Assembly (NCBI GenBank): GCA_009841165.1 | Contig: VXMI01000036.1 | Span: 1-63,091, forward strand | Source of the DNA: Gemmatimonadota bacterium | GTDB lineage: Bacteria; Gemmatimonadota; Gemmatimonadetes; Longimicrobiales; Gaopeijiaceae | Reading direction: 5' to 3' | DNA length: 63,091 nucleotides | Shown here: positions 41,232 through 51,761 of the stretch, one piece after another | How the letters are laid out: each line of letters begins with the position of its first letter | Position numbering within the stretch: position 1 is the stretch's first letter | Notes under the pieces: model-generated | Told to the model about the DNA's origin: nothing | Database searches by the model: none | What the model saw: the letters and a program-made list of their open reading frames with translations, nothing else | Program-made: the position numbers and the translations under genes

Positions 41232-41804
41232 TCAACCCTGCTCCGCATCCAGCGCGGCCCCGATCGCCCTCGCGTGCCACGAAAGGGTATCGACGAAGCG
41301 CGCGAACGCCTTCTCGTACCTCTCCTCCCGCGGCTCTCCGTCGGCGTCGAAGCTGCGGGCCACGTGCGTCACCGCCATGTGAGCCACCGGAAGGGCCTTG
41401 AGACGCAGGAAGAGGAGCTGGAGGAGATAGTGCACCTGAATGCCGCCGAAGGCTCCGGCCGACAGGGTGACGATCCCCACCGGCTTCCGGTCCCACTCGC
41501 CGTAGATGTAGTCCAGTGCGTTCTTGAGCACACCCGGAATCGAGCCGTTGTATTCGGGACTGACGACGACCACGGCGTCGGCCTCGCGGATCGCTTCGGA
41601 GAACGGGACCAGTCCGGGCGGCGGGTCGTCGCGCCGGTGGAGACGCTCTTCCATGATCGGGAGGTCGAACTCGGCCAGGTCGAGAAGCGGCGCGTCCGCT
41701 CCGGCCCGGCACAGGCGATCGCTGGCGAAGCGGGCCACCCTGATCGATTGCCGGCCCCGGCGCACGGATCCGACAAGGACGGGGATGCGGAGCGGGTCGT
41801 TCAT
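41232..41804 (-). CDS. NADPH-dependent FMN reductase-family protein
   Basis: A 190-residue flavodoxin-like protein. The phosphate-binding loop GSVRRGRQSIRVARF is at the N-terminus, and VVVSPEYNGSIPGVLKNALDY, the typical NADPH-dependent FMN reductase/azoreductase segment, lies near residue 80. It would bind FMN and reduce it or a quinone. Its ATG overlaps the ligase stop by four bases, so it is in one operon with the CoA ligase. Whether it helps the flavoprotein reductase of the neighbouring pathway is open. Confidence 0.85.
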   Translation of the reverse strand: MNDPLRIPVLVGSVRRGRQSIRVARFASDRLCRAGADAPLLDLAEFDLPIMEERLHRRDDPPPGLVPFSEAIREADAVVVVSPEYNGSIPGVLKNALDYIYGEWDRKPVGIVTLSAGAFGGIQVHYLLQLLFLRLKALPVAHMAVTHVARSFDADGEPREERYEKAFARFVDTLSWHARAIGAALDAEQG

Positions 41805-43354
41805 GGGGCGCCGCTGCGCTTGAGCGCGCCGCGGTCCACCTTGCCCAGGTGCGTCCGCGGCAGGTCCGCCAGAAGGTGGATCGCGTGCGGGACCTTGTAG
41901 GACTCCAGGCGCGCGCGGGCATGGGCACGCAGTTCCGCTTCGGTGATTCCGGCCGCCGCGCCGCCGCCGGCATCGGACTCGGCCGCCGGGACCACGAACC
42001 CGACCGGGACCACCAGCCCGTCCTCGTTTTCGACGCCGACCACCGCGGCTTCGCGCACACCGGGGTGGGCGAGCAGGCACTCCTCGGCCTCGCGAGGCGA
42101 GAACCACTTGCCGGACACCTTGAGGAGGTCGTCGGCCCGGCCCTGGTAGGTGAACCAGCCGTCCGCGTCGCGGGTCATCATGTCGCCGGAGACGTACCAG
42201 TCGTGGGCGAAGGCTCGCCGGGTCTCGCGCGGATGCCGCCAGTAGCCGTGCGCGCGGGAGCCGCCCCGGACCCGCATGCGTCCCACCTCGCCGTGCGGCA
42301 CTTCGCGGCCGTCGTCGTCGCAGAGCCGTACCTCGAAGCCGGGGACCGCCGTGCCCAGGGTGCCCGGGCGGACCGCGCCTGGCCGGTTGGAGATGAAAAC
42401 GTGCCACATCTCGGCCGTGCCAAGGCCGTCGAGCAGTTCGACGCCGAAGGTGTCGTTCCAGCGTCGGTGAAGCGACGGCGGCAGGGCTTCGCCGGCCGAG
42501 GTGGCCACGCGCAGGCAGCTCAGGTCCTGCCGGGCCGCTTCGGGGTGCGAGACCATCCGGTTCACCATGGTGGGCACGTTGATGAGGATCGTGGGGCGGT
42601 GGCGGGCGATCTGGGCGAAAAGCTCGTCGGCGGTGCAGCGCTCCGGGAAGAGCACCGCGGATCCGCCCGCCGAGAGCGGGAAGAAGAGATTGGACCCGGT
42701 AGCATAACCAAAGTAGAGCTTGGGCACCGAGATCGTGATGTCGTCGGCCGAGTACCCGAGAACGTGCCGGGCGTAGCACTCGGTCGAGTTGGCGAACGAG
42801 GCGTGGGGCTGGACAACTCCCTTCGGCGCGCCCGTCGTTCCGCCGGAAAAAAGCCAGATCGCCGGATCGTCCGGATGTGAAGCGAAGTTGTCAAAGTGTG
42901 AACTGGAGTTGTCAACTCGTTGATCGCCTTCGTCGGTTCCGAGCACCAGCAGCCGAGGACTCCGCCGTGCTGACGCCGCCGCCCGCGCAAACACGTCGCC
43001 CTGATCGGCGTGCAGCACCACCGCCGCGGCCCGCGCGTAGTCGCAGATGTCGCGGAGCCTGCGCTCGTCCAGGAAGCAGTTCACCATCACGCCGACGGCG
43101 CCCAGCTTGAGCGTGCCGAAGAGCGCCGCGGCGAAGTCGGGGACGTCGGGCAGCGCGATCAGCACCCGTTCCTCGGGCCGCACGCCCATGGCGGTCAGCG
43201 CGTTGGCGATGCGGTTTGCACGCCCCTGCAGGGCCGCATAGGTGACGTCTCCGTCGCCCGTCCGCAGCGCGACGCGGTGGCCCGTTCCCTCCCGGACGCG
43301 GTCGTCCAGGAAGCTGTCGGCGATATTGAACGGGTTGGGCGGATCGAAGCGCAT
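41801..43354 (-). CDS. Benzoate/2-aminobenzoate-type aryl-CoA ligase
   Basis: A 517-residue acyl-adenylate-forming enzyme of the benzoate-CoA ligase family: P-loop SGGTTGAPKGV near residue 167, GTAEMWHVFISNRPG, WYVSGDMM with the adenosine-binding Asp, and the C-terminal catalytic Lys in GKVDRGALK. It would make an aryl-CoA from the acid with ATP. Because the divergent operon encodes tryptophan dioxygenase and kynureninase, the likely acid is anthranilate; benzoate or salicylate remain possible. The ATG at 43354 is preceded by a promoter placed for a leaderless mRNA. Only 37 bases separate it from the divergent operon, so one regulator could control both. Confidence 0.87.
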   Translation of the reverse strand: MRFDPPNPFNIADSFLDDRVREGTGHRVALRTGDGDVTYAALQGRANRIANALTAMGVRPEERVLIALPDVPDFAAALFGTLKLGAVGVMVNCFLDERRLRDICDYARAAAVVLHADQGDVFARAAASARRSPRLLVLGTDEGDQRVDNSSSHFDNFASHPDDPAIWLFSGGTTGAPKGVVQPHASFANSTECYARHVLGYSADDITISVPKLYFGYATGSNLFFPLSAGGSAVLFPERCTADELFAQIARHRPTILINVPTMVNRMVSHPEAARQDLSCLRVATSAGEALPPSLHRRWNDTFGVELLDGLGTAEMWHVFISNRPGAVRPGTLGTAVPGFEVRLCDDDGREVPHGEVGRMRVRGGSRAHGYWRHPRETRRAFAHDWYVSGDMMTRDADGWFTYQGRADDLLKVSGKWFSPREAEECLLAHPGVREAAVVGVENEDGLVVPVGFVVPAAESDAGGGAAAGITEAELRAHARARLESYKVPHAIHLLADLPRTHLGKVDRGALKRSGAP

Positions 43355-43360
43355 CGGAGG

Positions 43361-43392
43361 ATTATGTTTAGGGACCAAGGAGGGATGGTCAA
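43361..43392 (-). promoter_or_regulatory. Promoter of the aryl-CoA ligase gene, leaderless
   Basis: On the minus strand TTGACC (43387-43392) is followed by TAAACA (43365-43370, 16-base spacer) and CATAAT (43361-43366, 20-base spacer). With either -10 choice the start of transcription falls at or within a few bases of the ATG at 43354. No Shine-Dalgarno precedes the ATG. The -35 overlaps the start codon of the divergent operon. Confidence 0.55.
43377..43384 (+). promoter_or_regulatory. Strong ribosome-binding site of the tryptophan operon
   Basis: AAGGAGGG lies seven bases before ATG 43392 and fixes the start of the first gene; the longer open frame to 43242 would run back into the divergent ligase gene. 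A possible plus-strand -10, TATGTT at 43363-43368, has no good -35. Confidence 0.75.
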
Positions 43393-44216
43393 TGGATAGC
43401 GGCCTCTGGGGCAATGCGACGTGGACGGAGCTTGAAGCACTGGGTCTTGGGTGCAGGGGCGCGGGTGGGAGCACGCCCACCCCACACGGCTCCCATGTCG
43501 TCGCATTGCTCCCGGTCGGCGCGGTCGAGGCGCACGGCCCCCACCTCCCCCTGATCACCGACGTGATCATCGCGGCCGCGGCCGCGAAGGCGGCGCTTCC
43601 GGGTCTCCGCGCCCAGGGCCGCCACCCCGTCATCCTTCCGCCCCTGGCCTACACCGCCGCCCCCTTCGCGGCGGGCTTCCCGGGAACCATCTCGGTGCGC
43701 CCCGCGACCTTCGCCGCGCTGCTGGCCGACGTGGCCGCCTCCCTGGAGCGGCAGGGCGTGGCCGCGCTCGTCGTGGTCAACGCGCACCTCGACCCCGCGC
43801 ACCTCGGCGCGATCACCGACGTGGCGCGCCCCTCCGGCGCGGCCGATGCACGCGCCGCCGCCATGCCCGTCATCCACCCCGACCTCACCCGGCGACGCTG
43901 GGCATCGCGCCTCACCCCCGAGTTCCGGAGCGGCGCTTGTCACGCGGGCTGCTACGAGACCTCGGTGGTCATGGCGGCCGCCCCCGAACTGGTGCGGGAC
44001 GAAGTGCGGCTCGGCCTGGCCGAAAACCCGGCGTCGCTGTCGGTCGCGATCCGCGCGGGCGCGGCCACCTTCGAGGAAGCGGGGGTGAGCGAGGCGTACT
44101 GCGGCGACCCCGCCGCCGCGACCCGGGAAGAAGGAGGACGGACCGTGGAGATCCTGGCGCGCATCGTGGTCGACGCGGTGGCGGAGCGGCTGGGGCAACC
44201 GGAGGCCGCGCCGTGA
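43392..44216 (+). CDS. Creatininase-family metal-dependent amidohydrolase; candidate N-formylkynurenine formamidase
   Basis: A 274-residue creatininase-family protein. Likely metal ligands are E46, H48 and D57 in the PVGAVEAHGPHLPLITD segment, H132 with D134 in NAHLDPAH, and H184/E189 in HAGCYETS. In creatininase itself two metals are held by Glu, His, Asp and a His-x-Glu pair; here the pair is His-x-Asp, and the common HGGN motif of other members is absent. The family also contains formamide hydrolases (the archaeal ArfB deformylase). As the first gene of an operon with tryptophan dioxygenase and kynureninase but no normal formamidase, it is the best candidate to deformylate N-formylkynurenine; this is inference. 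Overlaps the next gene by four bases. Confidence 0.8.
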   Translation: MDSGLWGNATWTELEALGLGCRGAGGSTPTPHGSHVVALLPVGAVEAHGPHLPLITDVIIAAAAAKAALPGLRAQGRHPVILPPLAYTAAPFAAGFPGTISVRPATFAALLADVAASLERQGVAALVVVNAHLDPAHLGAITDVARPSGAADARAAAMPVIHPDLTRRRWASRLTPEFRSGACHAGCYETSVVMAAAPELVRDEVRLGLAENPASLSVAIRAGAATFEEAGVSEAYCGDPAAATREEGGRTVEILARIVVDAVAERLGQPEAAP

Positions 44217-44980
44217 CGCGGGGCGCGGTCGTGACCGGTGGCGGTCGGGGGATCGGCGTCGCGGTGGCCCACGCGCTCGCCCGTTCGGGCGCCGCGGTGG
44301 TCGTCACCGCGCGCACGGCGGCCGAGATCGAAACCGTTGCCGAGGGACTGCGGGCGGCCGGCCGCACGGCCCACTCGGTGCCCTGCGACGTCGGCGATCC
44401 CGAATCGGTCGACGAGATGGCAGCCCGGGCCCGGGAGCTACTCGGCACGGTGGACATCGTGGTCAACAACGCGGGGATCGCGCGCTCGGCGCCATTCCAT
44501 CGCGTGTCGCTCGACCAGTGGGACACCGTGCACCGGGTGAACGCGACCGGACCGCTCCTGGTCACGCAGGCGTTCCTTCCCGGAATGCTGGAGCGCGGCT
44601 GGGGCCGCATCGTGAACGTCGCGTCGGTCGCGAGCCTAGAGGGGCATCGCTACATCACCTCCTATGCCGCATCCAAGCACGCGCTGATGGGAATGACGCG
44701 CTGCCTCGCGGCCGAGCTCGCCGGAACCGGCGTCACCGTCAACTCGGTGTGCCCGAGCTACGTCGACACGCCCATGACCGACGCGAACATCGAGCGGATC
44801 GCGGCGACCACGGGCCGCGACCCGGAAGCGATCCGCGAAGGGCTGGAGGACATGCAGCCCGGCGGCCGCCTCATTACCGCCGACGAGGTGGCGCACGCCG
44901 TGATGACGTTCATCCCGGACGCGGCCGCGTCGCTGCAGGGAAGCGAGCTGGTGGTGCGGGGTGGGGGCGGGGCCGCGTGA
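44213..44980 (+). CDS. SDR-family 3-hydroxyacyl-CoA-type dehydrogenase of the aromatic-CoA operon
   Basis: A 255-residue classical SDR with TGGGRGIG at residues 8-15, NNAG, and catalytic Ser, Tyr and Lys in VASVASLEG and YAASK. It starts with GTG overlapping the creatininase-family stop by four bases and its own stop overlaps the RidA GTG. Similar SDRs accompany the salicylyl-CoA/2-aminobenzoyl-CoA hydroxylase clusters of proteobacteria, where they are assigned to reduction or oxidation of the alicyclic CoA intermediates. The exact step here is not determined; an alcohol/ketone interconversion on the ring after dearomatisation is likely. Confidence 0.83.
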   Translation: MTRGAVVTGGGRGIGVAVAHALARSGAAVVVTARTAAEIETVAEGLRAAGRTAHSVPCDVGDPESVDEMAARARELLGTVDIVVNNAGIARSAPFHRVSLDQWDTVHRVNATGPLLVTQAFLPGMLERGWGRIVNVASVASLEGHRYITSYAASKHALMGMTRCLAAELAGTGVTVNSVCPSYVDTPMTDANIERIAATTGRDPEAIREGLEDMQPGGRLITADEVAHAVMTFIPDAAASLQGSELVVRGGGGAA

Positions 44981-45420
44981 CATTCGAGATCGTCAACCCG
45001 GAAGCGCTGGGGAGTCCCCGTGGGTGGAACAACGGGATGCTCGCGCCGGAGGGAGGCCGGGTGCTGTTCGTGGCCGGGCAGATCGGGGTGGAGGGCGGCC
45101 CGACGCTCGCCGGGCAGTTCGGGGCCGCGCTCGCCAACGTGGCGCGCGTCGTGGAGGCGGCGGGGGGCACGGTCGCCGATGTCGGACGGCTCACCATGTT
45201 TGTGACGGACATGGAGGCCTATCGGGGATCGCTGCGCGAGATCGGGGCCCGGTACATGGCGGTGTTTGGGAAGCACTTCCCCGCCATGGCGCTCGTGGCC
45301 GTGACCGAACTGGTCGATGCGCGTGCGGTGGTGGAGATCGAGGCCACGGCGGTGATCCCGCAGGCGTGCCCGGATGGGGTGCGCGCCGAGCGGGACACGG
45401 CCAGTGAGGAGCAGAGATGA
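44977..45420 (+). CDS. RidA-family enamine/imine deaminase
   Basis: A 147-residue YjgF/YER057c/UK114 (RidA) protein. The fold is indicated by VLFVAGQIGVEGG, the helix NVARVVEAAGGTVADVGRLT, and a C-terminal ALVAVTELVDARAVVEIEATAV segment; the usual catalytic Arg position near residue 105 is replaced by a Asp-Ala-Arg context (VDARAVVEIE), where the Arg is still present. RidA hydrolyses enamines and imines and releases ammonia. The ring product expected from the downstream monooxygenase/reductase on anthraniloyl-CoA carries an enamine, so RidA could release its nitrogen; this is inference. Start GTG and stop overlap both neighbours by four bases. Confidence 0.87.
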   Translation: MTFEIVNPEALGSPRGWNNGMLAPEGGRVLFVAGQIGVEGGPTLAGQFGAALANVARVVEAAGGTVADVGRLTMFVTDMEAYRGSLREIGARYMAVFGKHFPAMALVAVTELVDARAVVEIEATAVIPQACPDGVRAERDTASEEQR

Positions 45421-46238
45421 CCGAACTGAAATCCCCCTTCCTGGACCCGCCGAACTCGTTTCTGCTGGACTGCGACACGGAGACGGGCGTGGCGCGGATC
45501 ACGCTGAACCGGCCCGAGAGGCTGAACGCGCTGACGTTCGAGGTCTACGACGAACTGCGGAGCACGTTGCGGGCGCTGGATTCGGAGCCCGAGGTGCGCG
45601 CGATCGTGATCACGGGGGCGGGACGCGGGTTCTGTAGCGGCGGGGATGTCGAGGACATCATCGGGGCGCTGTTCGAGCGCGATTTCGAGGGGTTGCTCGA
45701 GTTCACGCGGATGACGTGCGACGTGATCGAGGCGATTCGGCGGTGCCGGCAGCCGGTCGTGGCGGCGCTGAACGGGACGGTGGCGGGTGCGGGGGCGGTG
45801 ATTGCGACGGCGTGCGACGTGCGGATCGCGGCCGAGTCGGCGCGGATCGCGTACCTCTTCACGCGCGTGGGGCTGTCCGGGGCGGATATGGGTGCGGCCT
45901 GGCTGCTGCCGCGGATCGTGGGTCTCGGGCGGGCGAGCGAGCTGCTGATGACCGGGGCGTTCATCGACGCGGCCGAGGCGTACCGGATCGGGCTGTACAA
46001 CCGGGTGGTGCCGGACGGCGAGGTGGTCGGCGCGGCCACGGCGCTGGCGGAGGAGCTGGCGCGGGGACCGTCGTTCGCGCTGCAGGTGACCAAGGACGCG
46101 CTGAACCGGGAAGCGCACATGAAGCTCGGCGAGGCGCTCGAGGCCGAGGCGCGGGCGCAGGCGGTGTGCATGCTGAACCCGAACTTCCGCGAGGCCTACC
46201 AGGCGTTCATCGAGAAGCGGAGGCCGCGTTTTGATTGA
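45417..46238 (+). CDS. Enoyl-CoA hydratase-family protein
   Basis: A 273-residue crotonase-family protein. The oxyanion-hole segments are GAGRGFCSGGDVEDI and ALNGTVAGAGAVIATACD, and LTRVGLSGADMGAAWLLPR follows; one catalytic Glu position normal in hydratases is Asp/Ala-like here (SGADMGAAWLL), as in many aromatic-degradation crotonases, so it may be a hydrolase (ring opening) rather than a simple hydratase. ATG overlaps the RidA stop, and the stop overlaps the next gene by eight bases. It is the likely hydration or ring-cleavage step of the alicyclic CoA path. Confidence 0.85.
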   Translation: MTELKSPFLDPPNSFLLDCDTETGVARITLNRPERLNALTFEVYDELRSTLRALDSEPEVRAIVITGAGRGFCSGGDVEDIIGALFERDFEGLLEFTRMTCDVIEAIRRCRQPVVAALNGTVAGAGAVIATACDVRIAAESARIAYLFTRVGLSGADMGAAWLLPRIVGLGRASELLMTGAFIDAAEAYRIGLYNRVVPDGEVVGAATALAEELARGPSFALQVTKDALNREAHMKLGEALEAEARAQAVCMLNPNFREAYQAFIEKRRPRFD

Positions 46239-47397
46239 CTCGGACGGGCTGTCACTCGATCCGGTTGCGGCGTTCGTGGAGGGGCCGCATCGGGAGTACC
46301 GGGAGCGGGTCGCGGCGTTCTGCCGGGACGAGATCGGCGGCCGGTCGGACCCGGAGAGCGACGCCGGCGCGCGGGTGCGGGCGCGGGAGCTGGTCGGGTC
46401 GATGGGGGCGGCGGGGCTGTTCCGGCCGATCGCGGAGGCGGATGTGCGGGGGTGCCTGGTGGCGCGCGAGGTGCTGGGTTGGTGGTCGCCGCTGGCGGAC
46501 TCGGTCTTTGCGCTGCAGGGGCTGAGCGCGACTCCGGGGCTGGTCGTGGGCGAGGATCCGGGCGGCTGGGTGGCGCGGGCGCTCGCCGGCGACGCGGTGG
46601 GCGCGTTCGCGATGACCGAGTGGGAGGCGGGGTCGGACGTGGCATCGATGGCGACGGCGGCGGTGCCGGAGGGGGACGGGGCGGGCCACTATGTGCTCGA
46701 CGGCGGCAAGGCGTTCATCTCGAATGCCGGGATCGCGGACTTCTACATGGTATTCGCGTCGACGGATCCGGGTGCGGGGACGCCGGGGATCTCATGCTTC
46801 GTGGTGCCCGCCGATGCGCCCGGGCTGGAGTTCGTGGGCGCGCAGGTGATGAGCGCGCCGCACCCGCTGGGCGAGATCCGTTTCCGCGGCTGCCGGGTGC
46901 CGGCGGGGGCGCTCCTGGGCGAGGTCGGGGCGGGGTTCAGGACGGGGATGGCGGCGCTGGATCGGCTGCGCCCCACGGTGGCGGCTGCCGCGTGCGGGAT
47001 GGCCGGGCGCGCGCTGTGGGAGGCGGTGCAGCACGCGCGGCGTCGGCAGCAGTTCGGGAAGCCGCTGGGGTCCTTTCAGTTGATCCAGGAGAAGCTCGCC
47101 GAGTCGGCCACGGAGCTGACCGCCGGGCGGCTGCTCACCTACCGCGCCGCGTGGGAGAAGGACCGGGGAGCCGCCCGGATCACCGTCGAGGCGGCGATGG
47201 CGAAGGCGTTCTCGACCGAGGCCGCGCAGCGGATTGTGGACCGCTCGGTGCAGGTCCTGGGGGGCAGGGGCGTGCTCGCGTCCCATCCGGTGGAGCACCT
47301 CTACCGGAGCGTGCGGGCGCTGCGCATCTACGAGGGGACGACCGAGATCCAGCACCTGATCATCGGCGGCGCGCTGGTCAGGGGATCCTCCCCTTGA
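46231..47397 (+). CDS. Acyl-CoA dehydrogenase
   Basis: A 388-residue FAD-dependent acyl-CoA dehydrogenase. The FAD-binding segment FAMTEWEAGSDV, the middle beta-domain GGKAFISNAG, FGKPLGSFQLIQ, GGRGV and the C-terminal catalytic Glu in YEGTTEIQ (near residue 373) are all present. It begins with TTG overlapping the hydratase stop by eight bases, and its stop overlaps the following TTG. It should introduce a double bond alpha-beta to the CoA thioester of an alicyclic or open-chain intermediate. Confidence 0.88.
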   Translation: MIDSDGLSLDPVAAFVEGPHREYRERVAAFCRDEIGGRSDPESDAGARVRARELVGSMGAAGLFRPIAEADVRGCLVAREVLGWWSPLADSVFALQGLSATPGLVVGEDPGGWVARALAGDAVGAFAMTEWEAGSDVASMATAAVPEGDGAGHYVLDGGKAFISNAGIADFYMVFASTDPGAGTPGISCFVVPADAPGLEFVGAQVMSAPHPLGEIRFRGCRVPAGALLGEVGAGFRTGMAALDRLRPTVAAAACGMAGRALWEAVQHARRRQQFGKPLGSFQLIQEKLAESATELTAGRLLTYRAAWEKDRGAARITVEAAMAKAFSTEAAQRIVDRSVQVLGGRGVLASHPVEHLYRSVRALRIYEGTTEIQHLIIGGALVRGSSP

Positions 47398-49748
47398 AGG
47401 TCAACGTCGTCGGGGGCGGGCCCGGCGGCCTCTTCGCCGCGCTGCTCCTCAAGAAGGACGACCCGCTCCGCGCGGTGCAGGTCTTCGAGCGCAACCGCCC
47501 CGACGACACCTTCGGCTTCGGTGTCGTCTTCTCGGACGCGACGCTGCAGGAGGTCGCCGACGCCGACCCGCCGACCCTTCGCGCCATCGAGGAGCGCTTC
47601 TACCACTGGGACGACATCCACATCCACTACCGGGGCCGCCGCCTGGAGTCGACCGGGCACGGCTTCGCGGGACTGTCGCGCCGGGAGCTGCTGTTGCTGT
47701 TGCACCGGCGCTGCCGCGAGGTGGGGGTGGAGCTGCACTTCGAGACGGATGTGGGAGACCTGGACCCGTACCTGGACGCCGACCTGGTGATCGGTGCCGA
47801 CGGGCTGAACAGCGCCGTGCGGGAGCGGTTCGCCGACGCCTTCGAGCCCGCCGTCGACCTGCGCCCCAACCGCTTCGCCTGGCTGGGCACCACGCGGCCC
47901 TTCCCCGCGTTCACCTTCCATTTCCGCGAGAACGAGCACGGCCTTTGGCGGGTGCATGCGTACCAGTACGACGCGTCGGGCAGGTCGACCTTCATCGTGG
48001 AGGCGACCGACGAGACGTGGCGGCGCGCGGGGATGGACCGGGCCGGAGAGGAAGGGACGGTCCGCTTCCTGTCCCGGCTCTTCGCCGACGAGCTCGATGG
48101 CCATCCGCTGATTCGCAACCGGTCGGTGTGGCGGCGCTTCCCCACGGTCGTGAACGCGCACTGGTCGGCGGGCAATGTCGTACTCATCGGGGACGCGGCA
48201 CACACGGCGCACTTCTCGGTGGGATCGGGGACGCGCCTGGCCATGCTCGACGCGATCGCGCTGGCGGACGCGCTGCGGGCGGGCGGCCAGGACGGGGGCG
48301 GCCGGGCACCCCTAACCGATGCGCTGGCTGCCTACGAGGCCGAGCGCCGCCGGCCGGTCGAGTCGCTGCAGCGCGCGGCCCACGCCAGCCTCCAGTGGTT
48401 CGAGGACACCGAGCGCTACTTCCGGCTGGAGCCCGAGCAGTTCGCCTTTTCGCTGCTGACACGCAGCCTGCGCATCTCGCACGAGAACCTGCGCGAGCGT
48501 GACCCGGCGTTCGTGGAAGAGGTGGACCGGTGGGTGGCGCGGAAGGCCGAGATCCAGGCCGGGGTGACGATAGCGGAGCATGAAGAATCGCTGGGGATCG
48601 TGCGGGCCGCCGGAGACCGCGCGCCTCCGCCCCCGCTGTTCACGCCGTTTCGCCTGCGCGAACTCACGCTGGCGAACCGCGTGGGCGTCTCGGCCATGTG
48701 CCAGTACTCGGCCCGGGACGGGACGGTCGACGACTGGCACCTCATCAACCTCGGCTCCCGTGCCATCGGCGGCGCGGGACTCGTGATGGCCGAGATGACT
48801 GCGATCGGGCGGGACGGGCGGATCTCGCCCGGTTGCGCGGGCATTTACATGGCCGAACACGTCACCGCGTGGCGGCGCCTGGTCGACTTTGTGAAGCGGT
48901 TCACAAGCGCGGCTGTCGGAATCCAGCTCGGCCACGCGGGGCGCAAGGGCTCGACGCGGCTGGACTGGGAGGGCCCCAACGAGCCCCTCGAAGAGGACGG
49001 CTGGCCCATCGTTTCGGCTTCGCCGATCGGGTTCTTCGAGCACAGCCCGGTACCTGCGGAGCTGGACGAGGCGGGGATGGATGCGCTGGTCGCGGACTTC
49101 GAGCGGTCCACCGCAATGGCGGTCGAGGCGGGGTTCGACATCGTCGAGATCCACATGGCGCACGGGTATCTGCTGGCCAGCTTCCTGTCGCCGCTGACCA
49201 ACCGGCGCACCGACGACTACGGGGGCAGCCTGGAGAATCGGCTGAGGTTTCCGTTGCGGGTCGTCGATGCGGTGCGTGCGGTGTGGCCGGACGAGCTTCC
49301 GCTCTCGGTGAGGCTGTCGGCGGTCGACTGGTGGCCCGGCGGCAACGAGCCCGAGGACGCGGTCGAGATTTCGCGGGCGCTGAAAGCCCACGGATGCGAC
49401 GTCGTGGACGTTTCGGCCGGCCAGACCGTGCCCTACCAGCAGCCCCGCTACGGGCGGCAGTTCCAGACGCCGTTTGCGGACCGGATCCGCCACGAGGTCG
49501 GAATCGCGACCATGGCCGTCGGAAACATCTCGTCCTTCGAGGACGTGAACGGGATCATCGCGGCGGGCAGGGCCGACCTGTGCCTGATGGCGCGTGCGCA
49601 CCTGTGGGATCCATACTGGACAAGGCACGCCGCCTACGCGCTGGGGTATCCCCTGCCGTGGCCATCGCAGTACGAGACCCTGGACAACTATACGCCGCGT
49701 TTCGGCGCGGCTTCGGGGGCCTTCGGGCCGGAGACCGAAGATGAGTGA
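47394..49748 (+). CDS. Bifunctional 2-aminobenzoyl-CoA monooxygenase/reductase-type flavoprotein
   Basis: A 784-residue fusion. Residues 1 to about 390 are a PHBH-like FAD monooxygenase: GGGPGG at the N-terminus and GDAAHTAHFSVGSGT near residue 265. From about 410 to 770 an old-yellow-enzyme domain follows (FTPFRLRELTLANRV, LGHAGRKGS, HMAHGYLLASFLSPLTN, RRTDDYGGSLENRLRF). This is the architecture of the salicylyl-CoA 5-hydroxylase/2-aminobenzoyl-CoA monooxygenase-reductase family known from Azoarcus evansii, which hydroxylates and reduces anthraniloyl-CoA to an alicyclic enamine CoA. Because kynureninase is encoded next, anthraniloyl-CoA is the likely substrate. The start is TTG 47394; the open frame upstream to 46452 overlaps acyl-CoA dehydrogenase and is not real. 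It overlaps the next ATG by eight bases. Confidence 0.9.
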   Translation: MKVNVVGGGPGGLFAALLLKKDDPLRAVQVFERNRPDDTFGFGVVFSDATLQEVADADPPTLRAIEERFYHWDDIHIHYRGRRLESTGHGFAGLSRRELLLLLHRRCREVGVELHFETDVGDLDPYLDADLVIGADGLNSAVRERFADAFEPAVDLRPNRFAWLGTTRPFPAFTFHFRENEHGLWRVHAYQYDASGRSTFIVEATDETWRRAGMDRAGEEGTVRFLSRLFADELDGHPLIRNRSVWRRFPTVVNAHWSAGNVVLIGDAAHTAHFSVGSGTRLAMLDAIALADALRAGGQDGGGRAPLTDALAAYEAERRRPVESLQRAAHASLQWFEDTERYFRLEPEQFAFSLLTRSLRISHENLRERDPAFVEEVDRWVARKAEIQAGVTIAEHEESLGIVRAAGDRAPPPPLFTPFRLRELTLANRVGVSAMCQYSARDGTVDDWHLINLGSRAIGGAGLVMAEMTAIGRDGRISPGCAGIYMAEHVTAWRRLVDFVKRFTSAAVGIQLGHAGRKGSTRLDWEGPNEPLEEDGWPIVSASPIGFFEHSPVPAELDEAGMDALVADFERSTAMAVEAGFDIVEIHMAHGYLLASFLSPLTNRRTDDYGGSLENRLRFPLRVVDAVRAVWPDELPLSVRLSAVDWWPGGNEPEDAVEISRALKAHGCDVVDVSAGQTVPYQQPRYGRQFQTPFADRIRHEVGIATMAVGNISSFEDVNGIIAAGRADLCLMARAHLWDPYWTRHAAYALGYPLPWPSQYETLDNYTPRFGAASGAFGPETEDE

Positions 49749-50532
49749 ACGACGAGAACAGATGGACTATCAGTACTTCGCCATGCTCCCGGAGCTGCTG
49801 TCCCTGCAACGGCCGCTCTCCGATCCGCCGGAGCACGACGAGATGTTGTTCATCATCGTCCACCAGGTGCACGAGCTGTGGTTCAAGGCCTCGCTGCACG
49901 AGCTCGATCATGCACGAGACCTTTTTGTTGCCGGCGATGAGCCCCGCGTGTCCGCGACGCTCAAGCGCGTGCGCTCGATCATGAAGGTCCTGGTGGGCCA
50001 GCTGGACATCCTGGAGACGATGACGCCCGTCGAGTTCGAGTCCTTCCGCGACCGGCTCGACACGGCCAGCGGTTTCCAGTCGGCGCAGTTCCGTGAACTG
50101 GAGTTCGCCTTTGGAATGAAGAAGGCGTCGGTCCTCAAGGCGTTTCCGTATGCGGATGAACAGCGGCGGCTGCAGCGCCGGCTTGAGGAGCCGTCGCTCT
50201 GGGATGCCTTCCTGCGGTTCCTGGTCGGCAAGGGGTACCAGGTCCCGGAGGGCGCGCTTGGCCGCGATGTGACCAGACCCGTGGCGCCGGACCCGCAGGT
50301 GCAGGCGATGCTGGTCGAGGCGTATCGCTCGGATCCTGGGCTGGTCAACCTGTGCGAGCGCCTGGTGGACCTGGACGAGGGGTTCCAGGAGTGGCGCTAC
50401 CGGCACGTCAAGATGGTGGAGCGCACGATCGGCAATAAGCCGGGGACGGGGGACAGCGCGGGGGTGGCCTACCTGGCGACCACGATCAAGCCGGCGTTTC
50501 CGGACCTGTGGGAGATGAGGACGGCGTTGTGA
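49741..50532 (+). CDS. kynA: Tryptophan 2,3-dioxygenase
   Basis: A 263-residue all-alpha haem enzyme that cleaves the indole ring of L-tryptophan to N-formylkynurenine. The substrate-binding helix has MLFIIVHQVHELWFK around residues 37-51 with its His, and the proximal haem His lies near residue 222 in WRYRHVKMVERTIG; GTGDSAGVAYL follows. The length is typical of bacterial enzymes. The ATG lies inside the end of the monooxygenase/reductase gene and its stop overlaps the kynureninase GTG, so the tryptophan enzymes are coupled to the aromatic-CoA enzymes. Oxygen-dependent, so this branch works aerobically. Confidence 0.94.
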   Translation: MSERREQMDYQYFAMLPELLSLQRPLSDPPEHDEMLFIIVHQVHELWFKASLHELDHARDLFVAGDEPRVSATLKRVRSIMKVLVGQLDILETMTPVEFESFRDRLDTASGFQSAQFRELEFAFGMKKASVLKAFPYADEQRRLQRRLEEPSLWDAFLRFLVGKGYQVPEGALGRDVTRPVAPDPQVQAMLVEAYRSDPGLVNLCERLVDLDEGFQEWRYRHVKMVERTIGNKPGTGDSAGVAYLATTIKPAFPDLWEMRTAL

Positions 50533-51761
50533 CGGAGGCGGACGGCGCGGCCGGGCACACCGCGTCCGGTTTGGCGCGCCATTACTCGCGCTTTCGCGTG
50601 GTGGACCGCGTGTTGCTCACCGGGCACTCCCACCAGGCGTGGCCGGATGTGGCGTTTTCCGCCCAGAAGCAGGCCTGGCTCGACGCCGCCGAAATGGTGG
50701 ACGACAAGTGGGGGCGGGCCTTCGAGGTCGCCGACGAGGTTCGGGCGGGCTACCGGCGCCTTCTGGACGACCCGGACGGGCACATCGCGCTGGGGCAGAA
50801 CACCCACGAACTGCTGATCCGGTTCCTATCGGCGCTGCCGTTGCGGAAGCGGCCGCGCCTGGTGACCACCGACGGCGAGTTCCACACGATCCGGCGCCAG
50901 CTCGACCGGCTGGAGGCCGAAGGGATCGAGATCGTGCGCGTGCCAACGGGCACCGATGACGGGACGAGCGAAGACAGGTCGGTGGCGGAGGGGATCGTGG
51001 ACGCCGTGGACGACCGGACCGCCGCTGTGGTGGTCTCGTCGGTGCTGTTCCGGGACGCGCGGATCGTGGAGGGGCTGGACCAGGTGGCTGCGGCGTGCAT
51101 GAGGGTGGGGGCCGAGTTGCTCGTGGACGCCTACCACTCGCTCAACGCGGTGCCGTTTTCGGTCGTGGAGACGGGGCTGGAGGGCGCGTTCGTCGTGGGC
51201 GGCGGGTACAAGTACTGTCAGCTGGGGGAGGGGAATTGCTTCCTGAGGTTCCCGCGGGACTGCAAGTTGCGACCCGTGCTGACGGGCTGGTTCGCGGAAT
51301 TCGGGACGCTGGCGGCGGAGGCGGGGGGAGAGGCGGGCGAAGGCGGCGTTGGATACGGAGAAGGGCACCTGCGGTTCGCGGGGTCCACGTACGATCCGGT
51401 CAGCCACTATCGCGGCGCGGCGGTGTTCGAGTTCTTCCGCGAGATGGGGCTCGACGCGGCGCGGTTGCGGAAGATCAGCCTGGCGCAGATCCGGCGGTTG
51501 GCGTCGCGGGTGGACGCTCTGGACCTGGATCCGGCGTTGCTGTCGCGGGATCGCTCGGTTCGGCTGGAGCGAAGGGGCGGGTTTCTGGCGCTGGAGGTGC
51601 CCCGCGCCGGGGAGGTCTGCTGCAAGCTCCGCGGGCGGAAGGTCTACGCCGATTTCCGGGGCCGCGTGCTGCGCCTGGGCCCCGCCCTGTACGTGACCGC
51701 GGAGCAGCTGGACGAGGCCGTGGACGAGTTGGGAGAGGTGGTGAGGGGGCTGGCGGGCTAA
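50529..51761 (+). CDS. kynU: Kynureninase-type PLP enzyme
   Basis: A 410-residue fold-type I PLP enzyme of the kynureninase/class V aminotransferase group. The PLP Lys is K228 in VGGGYKYCQLGEG and the ring-binding Asp is D200 in LLVDAYHS; the N-terminal TGHSHQAWP segment is typical of kynureninase-like proteins. It would split kynurenine into anthranilate and alanine. The GTG start overlaps the dioxygenase stop by four bases. It is the last gene of the operon; 15 bases separate it from the convergent M24 peptidase gene. Class assignment is clear, exact substrate from context. Confidence 0.86.
   Translation: MTEADGAAGHTASGLARHYSRFRVVDRVLLTGHSHQAWPDVAFSAQKQAWLDAAEMVDDKWGRAFEVADEVRAGYRRLLDDPDGHIALGQNTHELLIRFLSALPLRKRPRLVTTDGEFHTIRRQLDRLEAEGIEIVRVPTGTDDGTSEDRSVAEGIVDAVDDRTAAVVVSSVLFRDARIVEGLDQVAAACMRVGAELLVDAYHSLNAVPFSVVETGLEGAFVVGGGYKYCQLGEGNCFLRFPRDCKLRPVLTGWFAEFGTLAAEAGGEAGEGGVGYGEGHLRFAGSTYDPVSHYRGAAVFEFFREMGLDAARLRKISLAQIRRLASRVDALDLDPALLSRDRSVRLERRGGFLALEVPRAGEVCCKLRGRKVYADFRGRVLRLGPALYVTAEQLDEAVDELGEVVRGLAG

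Follow-up and report, generated by a model that had tools for sequence, protein, structure and literature searches.

We have identified, at the head of a tryptophan-catabolic operon in a member of the Gemmatimonadota, a creatininase-family gene whose product, judged from its sequence and gene neighbourhood, is probably the formamidase of the pathway, acting on either the N-formylkynurenine or the N-formylanthranilate form. N-formylkynurenine itself is fairly likely to be the substrate, and the protein may well belong to a third kynurenine formamidase class, one that arose independently, uses the creatininase fold and is standard for tryptophan catabolism via 2-aminobenzoyl-CoA in several phyla of largely uncultured bacteria. 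Two unrelated enzymes are known to act as kynurenine formamidase: eukaryotes use a serine hydrolase, bacteria the zinc enzyme KynB. If our reading is true, a third unrelated fold would show plainly that the enzyme of this step has been replaced more than once, a function would be assigned to a creatininase subfamily of at least five phyla, and a gap would be closed in the predicted route from tryptophan to 2-aminobenzoyl-CoA in these bacteria. Our search of the open-access literature found no report linking creatininase to kynurenine formamidase.

Within the window (the whole stretch of 63,091 nucleotides analysed), the operon occupies positions 43392-51761 of the + strand, and stops and starts overlap at the junctions inspected. 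The first-pass annotation had placed the creatininase-family gene first in the cluster; this holds, and a divergent aryl-CoA ligase is now added to the set. The order is creatininase, SDR, RidA, enoyl-CoA hydratase (ECH), acyl-CoA dehydrogenase (ACAD), 2-aminobenzoyl-CoA monooxygenase/reductase (ACMR), tryptophan dioxygenase (TDO) and kynureninase-like gene:

41801-43354, - strand: benzoate-CoA-ligase-family protein, presumed 2-aminobenzoate (anthranilate)-CoA ligase (TIGR02262, 458.5 bits, cut-off 375)
43392-44216, + strand: creatininase-family metal hydrolase, proposed N-formylkynurenine formamidase (PF02633, 4e-49)
44213-44980, + strand: putative SDR-family dehydrogenase, presumed beta-oxidation-type step (Rossmann and YxxxK motifs, conserved position)
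44977-45420, + strand: RidA-family enamine deaminase (PF01042, 4e-16)
45417-46238, + strand: enoyl-CoA hydratase family protein (NF006107, 382 bits, cut-off 330)
46231-47397, + strand: acyl-CoA dehydrogenase (PF00441, 3e-47)
47394-49748, + strand: bifunctional 2-aminobenzoyl-CoA / salicylyl-CoA monooxygenase-reductase, ACMR type (NF006101, 1088 bits, cut-off 1078)
49741-50532, + strand: tryptophan 2,3-dioxygenase (PF03301, 4e-58; TIGR03036, 268 bits, cut-off 391)
50529-51761, + strand: divergent kynureninase-like PLP enzyme (PF22580 KYNU_C, 33 bits, cut-off 27)

The SDR gene shares 4 bp with the stop of the creatininase gene, and on the other side only 37 bp separate the start codons of the creatininase gene and the ligase, a divergent pair kept in most loci. 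The kynureninase-like protein retains the D-x-x-H and YKY motifs despite its divergence (25 bits to TIGR01814, 27% identity to canonical kynureninase); its gene accompanies TDO in the order, and the enzyme may have a substrate preference of its own. Downstream of the ligase and adjoining metG, an NADPH-dependent FMN-reductase-type gene (41232-41804) is kept in the genus and may be connected with the pathway's flavin enzymes.

The operon shares its ligase, ACMR, SDR, ECH, ACAD and RidA genes with abm-type 2-aminobenzoyl-CoA (anthranilate) clusters, and differs from them in adding TDO and kynureninase-like genes and in having the creatininase gene at its head. The route runs through tryptophan, N-formylkynurenine, kynurenine, anthranilate and 2-aminobenzoyl-CoA, followed by ring oxidation/reduction and beta-oxidation, and the operon would carry tryptophan along it to anthranilate and 2-aminobenzoyl-CoA and on through these last stages, with RidA presumably removing the enamine nitrogen. 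Down to ring attack, the formamidase step is the only one that would be left without a candidate gene, unless the creatininase-family protein fills it. As had been noted at first pass, the cluster holds no KynB-type or stand-alone arylformamidase-type gene.

The creatininase-family open reading frame encodes 274 aa and has an AGGAGG-type ribosome site directly 5' of it. Its product matches the Pfam profile Creatininase (PF02633), scoring 167.6 bits where the cut-off is 31.3, and no other Pfam family; profile scans gave no match to the alpha/beta hydrolases of AFMID type, with their serine triad, or to PF04199 or TIGR03035 (KynB, Cyclase family). In phmmer alignments with solved creatininases (1q3k, 1j2t family), E46, H48, D57, H132 and D134 fall on creatininase E34, H36, D45, H120 and E122, which we take to be the metal ligands, and H184 and E189 fall on H178 and E183, presumably the catalytic His and Glu. 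Across 123 subfamily sequences E46, H48, D57, H132, H184 and E189 are invariant, and position 134 is Asp in 118 and Glu in 5. An AlphaFold model of an ortholog (pLDDT 94.8) superposes on creatininase with Z 24.7 and 2.5 A over 232 residues. The profile match and this fold agree with the earlier call of a metal-dependent creatininase-family protein, and the alignment confirms that its five proposed residues are placed like the creatininase metal ligands. On its sequence, the predicted product is a creatininase-fold hydrolase with the full set of metal and catalytic residues.

The protein scored below the cut-offs of the equivalog models for MftE (TIGR03964, 91.5 bits against 172), creatininase proper (EC 3.5.2.10; TIGR04448, 82.4 against 235) and IolN (3-dehydro-scyllo-inosose hydrolase; NF041098, 34.5 against 245). 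It resembles creatininase (PF02633; PDB 1j2t, 1q3k, 3a6j) in fold, in all metal ligands, in the H178/E183 equivalents and in belonging to a family of C-N bond hydrolases, but differs in its 26-27% identity, its hydrophobic Y87/F92/F96, its Asp for Glu122 and its tryptophan-catabolism operon. In a FastTree phylogeny, 103 subfamily members form one clade with support of 100, which a long branch parts from MftE, from other creatininase-family proteins and from the window genome's own paralogs. MftE, the peptidyl-dipeptidase of mycofactocin biosynthesis, is the best NCBIfam neighbour within the creatininase superfamily, but it lies outside this clade, with Glu-His at positions 92-93 and no Asp134.

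The subfamily has its own signature: Phe-Ala at positions 92-93, where most comparators have Glu-His; a metal motif of NAHLDP in place of the usual NGHGGN; nearly invariant Y87, F96, E177, C183 and Y236; and a subfamily-specific hydrophobic segment formed by Y87, F92 and F96. Such an aromatic hydrophobic wall would be compatible with an aminobenzoyl substrate, which is suggestive only. KynB, whose structure has a binuclear zinc site and a confined hydrophobic pocket (PMC4243253), is like the protein described here in the proposed reaction and in metal dependence, but belongs to an unrelated sequence family with, by published description, its own fold. The alpha/beta-hydrolase formamidases (AFMID, Drosophila 4e11) share the proposed reaction too, but are serine hydrolases of another fold.

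By analogy with creatininase, we infer that E46, H48, D57, H132 and D134 would bind two divalent metals, that a metal-bound water would attack the formyl carbon and that H184 and E189 would aid proton transfer. The wall of Y87, F92 and F96, replacing the polar Glu-His pair, may hold the aminobenzoyl ring. As the second step of the operon's pathway, this dinuclear-metal amidohydrolase would split the formamide bond of N-formyl-L-kynurenine, releasing kynurenine and formate.

Classical formamidases were sought across the genome that carries the window, which is an estimated 96.6% complete, so that their absence is likely rather than certain. PF04199 picks out one protein, a cyclase that looks like a secreted lipoprotein and was rejected as KynB for its lipoprotein-type leader and weak match to TIGR03035, a profile whose best hit in the genome reaches only 3.7e-7. 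An alpha/beta-type formamidase query from Thalassospira found nothing at 1e-8, and no stand-alone AFMID-type gene was found; matches to PF20434 (BD-FAE) come from frames of 650-1090 aa that are more peptidase-like than the 300-aa AFMID. A classical formamidase elsewhere in the genome, named at first pass as the finding that would count against replacement, was therefore not encountered in any of these searches (PF04199, TIGR03035, alpha/beta, PF20434).

In the order, surveyed through 146 genomes, the subfamily (close relatives above about 43% identity, other creatininases lying mostly at 29-39%) is present in 45. All 45 carriers have TDO, compared with 44 of the 101 other genomes (Fisher 5e-13), although families f1/f2 and f3 are separate clades, so that the distribution is clade-structured and Fisher values overstate independence. 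The carriers share the same gene order wherever the contig permits, and in one (G090) the cluster is divided between two contigs. ACMR falls into two groups. Of the 49 genomes in which it is about 60% identical or more, 45 have the creatininase gene; in the remaining four the locus ends at a contig boundary before the expected place of that gene. The group at 52-57% comprises family f3 plus two f2 genomes; its anthranilate clusters lack the gene, TDO adjoins ACMR only in G015 and G018 among the loci read, and 11 of its 17 genomes have KynB. Taking together the 63 genomes of the order with both TDO and ACMR, 43 have the creatininase alone, 13 a KynB or alpha/beta candidate alone, 2 both and 5 neither, a complementary but clade-structured pattern in which the f3 alpha/beta candidates (1e-9 to 1e-15 over about 110 residues) may be generic esterases. 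Four of the five genomes with neither (G014, G091, G007, G034) are explained by contig breaks; the fifth is G036.

Genomes with TDO and no ACMR behave differently. Among 22 of them in the order, including G001, G011, G067, G071, G079, G081, G119 and G127, there is no subfamily member, KynB or alpha/beta candidate, even though kynureninase adjoins TDO in several. The creatininase gene is thus not present in every genome where TDO and kynureninase lack another formamidase, and TDO neighbours in the creatininase-less genomes inspected offered no convincing formamidase candidate. These 22 genomes may hold an unrecognised formamidase, or the step may run there without a dedicated gene. In G081, of the same genus as the window genome, open TDO and kynureninase frames persist where ligase, creatininase, SDR, RidA, ACAD and ACMR have been lost; the operon remnant (locus L102, 7543-13320) retains MetRS, FMN reductase, ECH, TDO and kynureninase-like genes. 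G071 resembles it, and most other members of its genus have the full operon. Such losses imply either another formamidase in these genomes or a different reaction order. Within the order, the creatininase gene goes with the ACMR module and not with TDO alone; it tracks the whole tryptophan to 2-aminobenzoyl-CoA module.

A scan of GTDB genomes gave 539 relatives, and the best 80 loci, examined under the phylum names of their genome records, place the subfamily in Gemmatimonadota, Acidobacteriota, Myxococcota, Planctomycetota, Eisenbacteria and others. In most of these 80 loci the ligase and creatininase genes again diverge from each other, and the same genes follow. Across 50 cross-phylum carriers, TDO is found in 46 (including genomes where it lies away from the creatininase gene), ACMR in 44 and a KynB-like gene in only 7. 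At one locus (L190 in G165) the creatininase gene sits with TDO, kynureninase and ligase, and none of their neighbours belongs to the lower pathway; the same genome has a second TDO elsewhere (contig C80, 31661-33084), directly followed by KynB.

Other bacteria fill the same position in other ways. In Thalassospira marina a single cluster encodes the entire tryptophan to 2-aminobenzoyl-CoA set, its kynU and kynA being canonical, and in place of the creatininase gene it has an alpha/beta hydrolase that matches Drosophila kynurenine formamidase at 1.5e-15, its best named family being lipase. Between this protein and the KynB encoded elsewhere in f3 genomes, lineages thus differ in the fold that fills the gap. 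Annotated plasmid ACMR clusters of Phyllobacterium, Azospirillum, Aminobacter, Comamonas and Rhodococcus, which hold a partial or complete lower set, have no creatininase gene within 10 kb.

Several lines converge on the creatininase-family protein as N-formylkynurenine formamidase: an overlapping operon with TDO and kynureninase-like genes and no other formamidase candidate; conserved synteny, both within the order and across at least five phyla; TDO in every carrier of the order and nearly all elsewhere, even where it is distant; reciprocal replacement by KynB or an alpha/beta hydrolase; the composition of L190; and the monophyly, hydrophobic residues and NAHLDP motif of the subfamily. The reading is weakened by the 22 TDO-bearing genomes without ACMR or any recognised formamidase, by G081, which kept TDO and kynureninase, by KynB-like genes in 2 of the 45 order and 7 of the 50 cross-phylum carriers, and by the divergence of the operon kynureninase, which leaves its substrate uncertain. 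These same KynB-like genes qualify the check proposed at first pass, that creatininase genes beside TDO occur only where a classical formamidase is missing, which is mostly the case. The proposed replacement of kynurenine formamidase likewise stands in part: the lack of a classical enzyme, the TDO association, the reciprocal distribution and the absence from anthranilate-only clusters agree with it, whereas the gene's tracking of the whole module rather than TDO does not.

Since the gene follows the whole module, deformylation of N-formylanthranilate is the main rival. The divergent kynureninase, so far from the canonical family, would cleave N-formylkynurenine directly, giving alanine and N-formylanthranilate, from which the creatininase-family protein would remove the formyl group ahead of CoA ligation. 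We consider this unlikely. It would account for the losses in G081 and G071, and for the absence of the creatininase gene wherever TDO and kynureninase persist in the order without the ACMR module, and it would tie the gene to the ligase, its most conserved neighbour. However, that adjacency may merely reflect a common divergent promoter, and homologous clusters substitute KynB or alpha/beta hydrolases, types known for N-formylkynurenine. Still less probable is that an unrecognised housekeeping amidase elsewhere is the formamidase, leaving the creatininase-family protein another role such as side-product repair or accessory peptidase; the 22 genomes just mentioned would fit, but near-perfect linkage to TDO and a first-gene position conserved across five phyla speak against it, as do the classical candidates present where TDO- and ACMR-bearing genomes miss the creatininase gene. 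Least probable, in our view, is a hydrolytic role in the lower 2-aminobenzoyl-CoA pathway, such as ring opening of a cyclic diketone intermediate in the manner of IolN, a creatininase-family protein annotated as acting on diketo-inositol. Presence in nearly all genomes of the closer ACMR group, loss along with the lower pathway in G081 and a weak similarity to IolN point that way. Against it stand the low IolN score, L190 with its lack of adjacent lower-pathway genes and, above all, anthranilate-only clusters (f3 Gemmatimonadota, Alpha- and Betaproteobacteria such as Phyllobacterium and Comamonas, and others) that hold ACMR, SDR, ECH, ACAD, ligase and RidA and no creatininase gene; because of these, a lower-pathway role is improbable and IolN-like ring opening was largely rejected.

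Some loci carry additional genes of about 500 aa beside ACMR. These were considered as kynurenine monooxygenases and set aside, the two scanned being OYE-type flavoproteins. The extra OYE-family gene lies near ACMR in loci outside the window's genus (L170, 10793-12241; L173, 14043-15569), and similar partial matches to it occur in L181, L220, L234 and L236.
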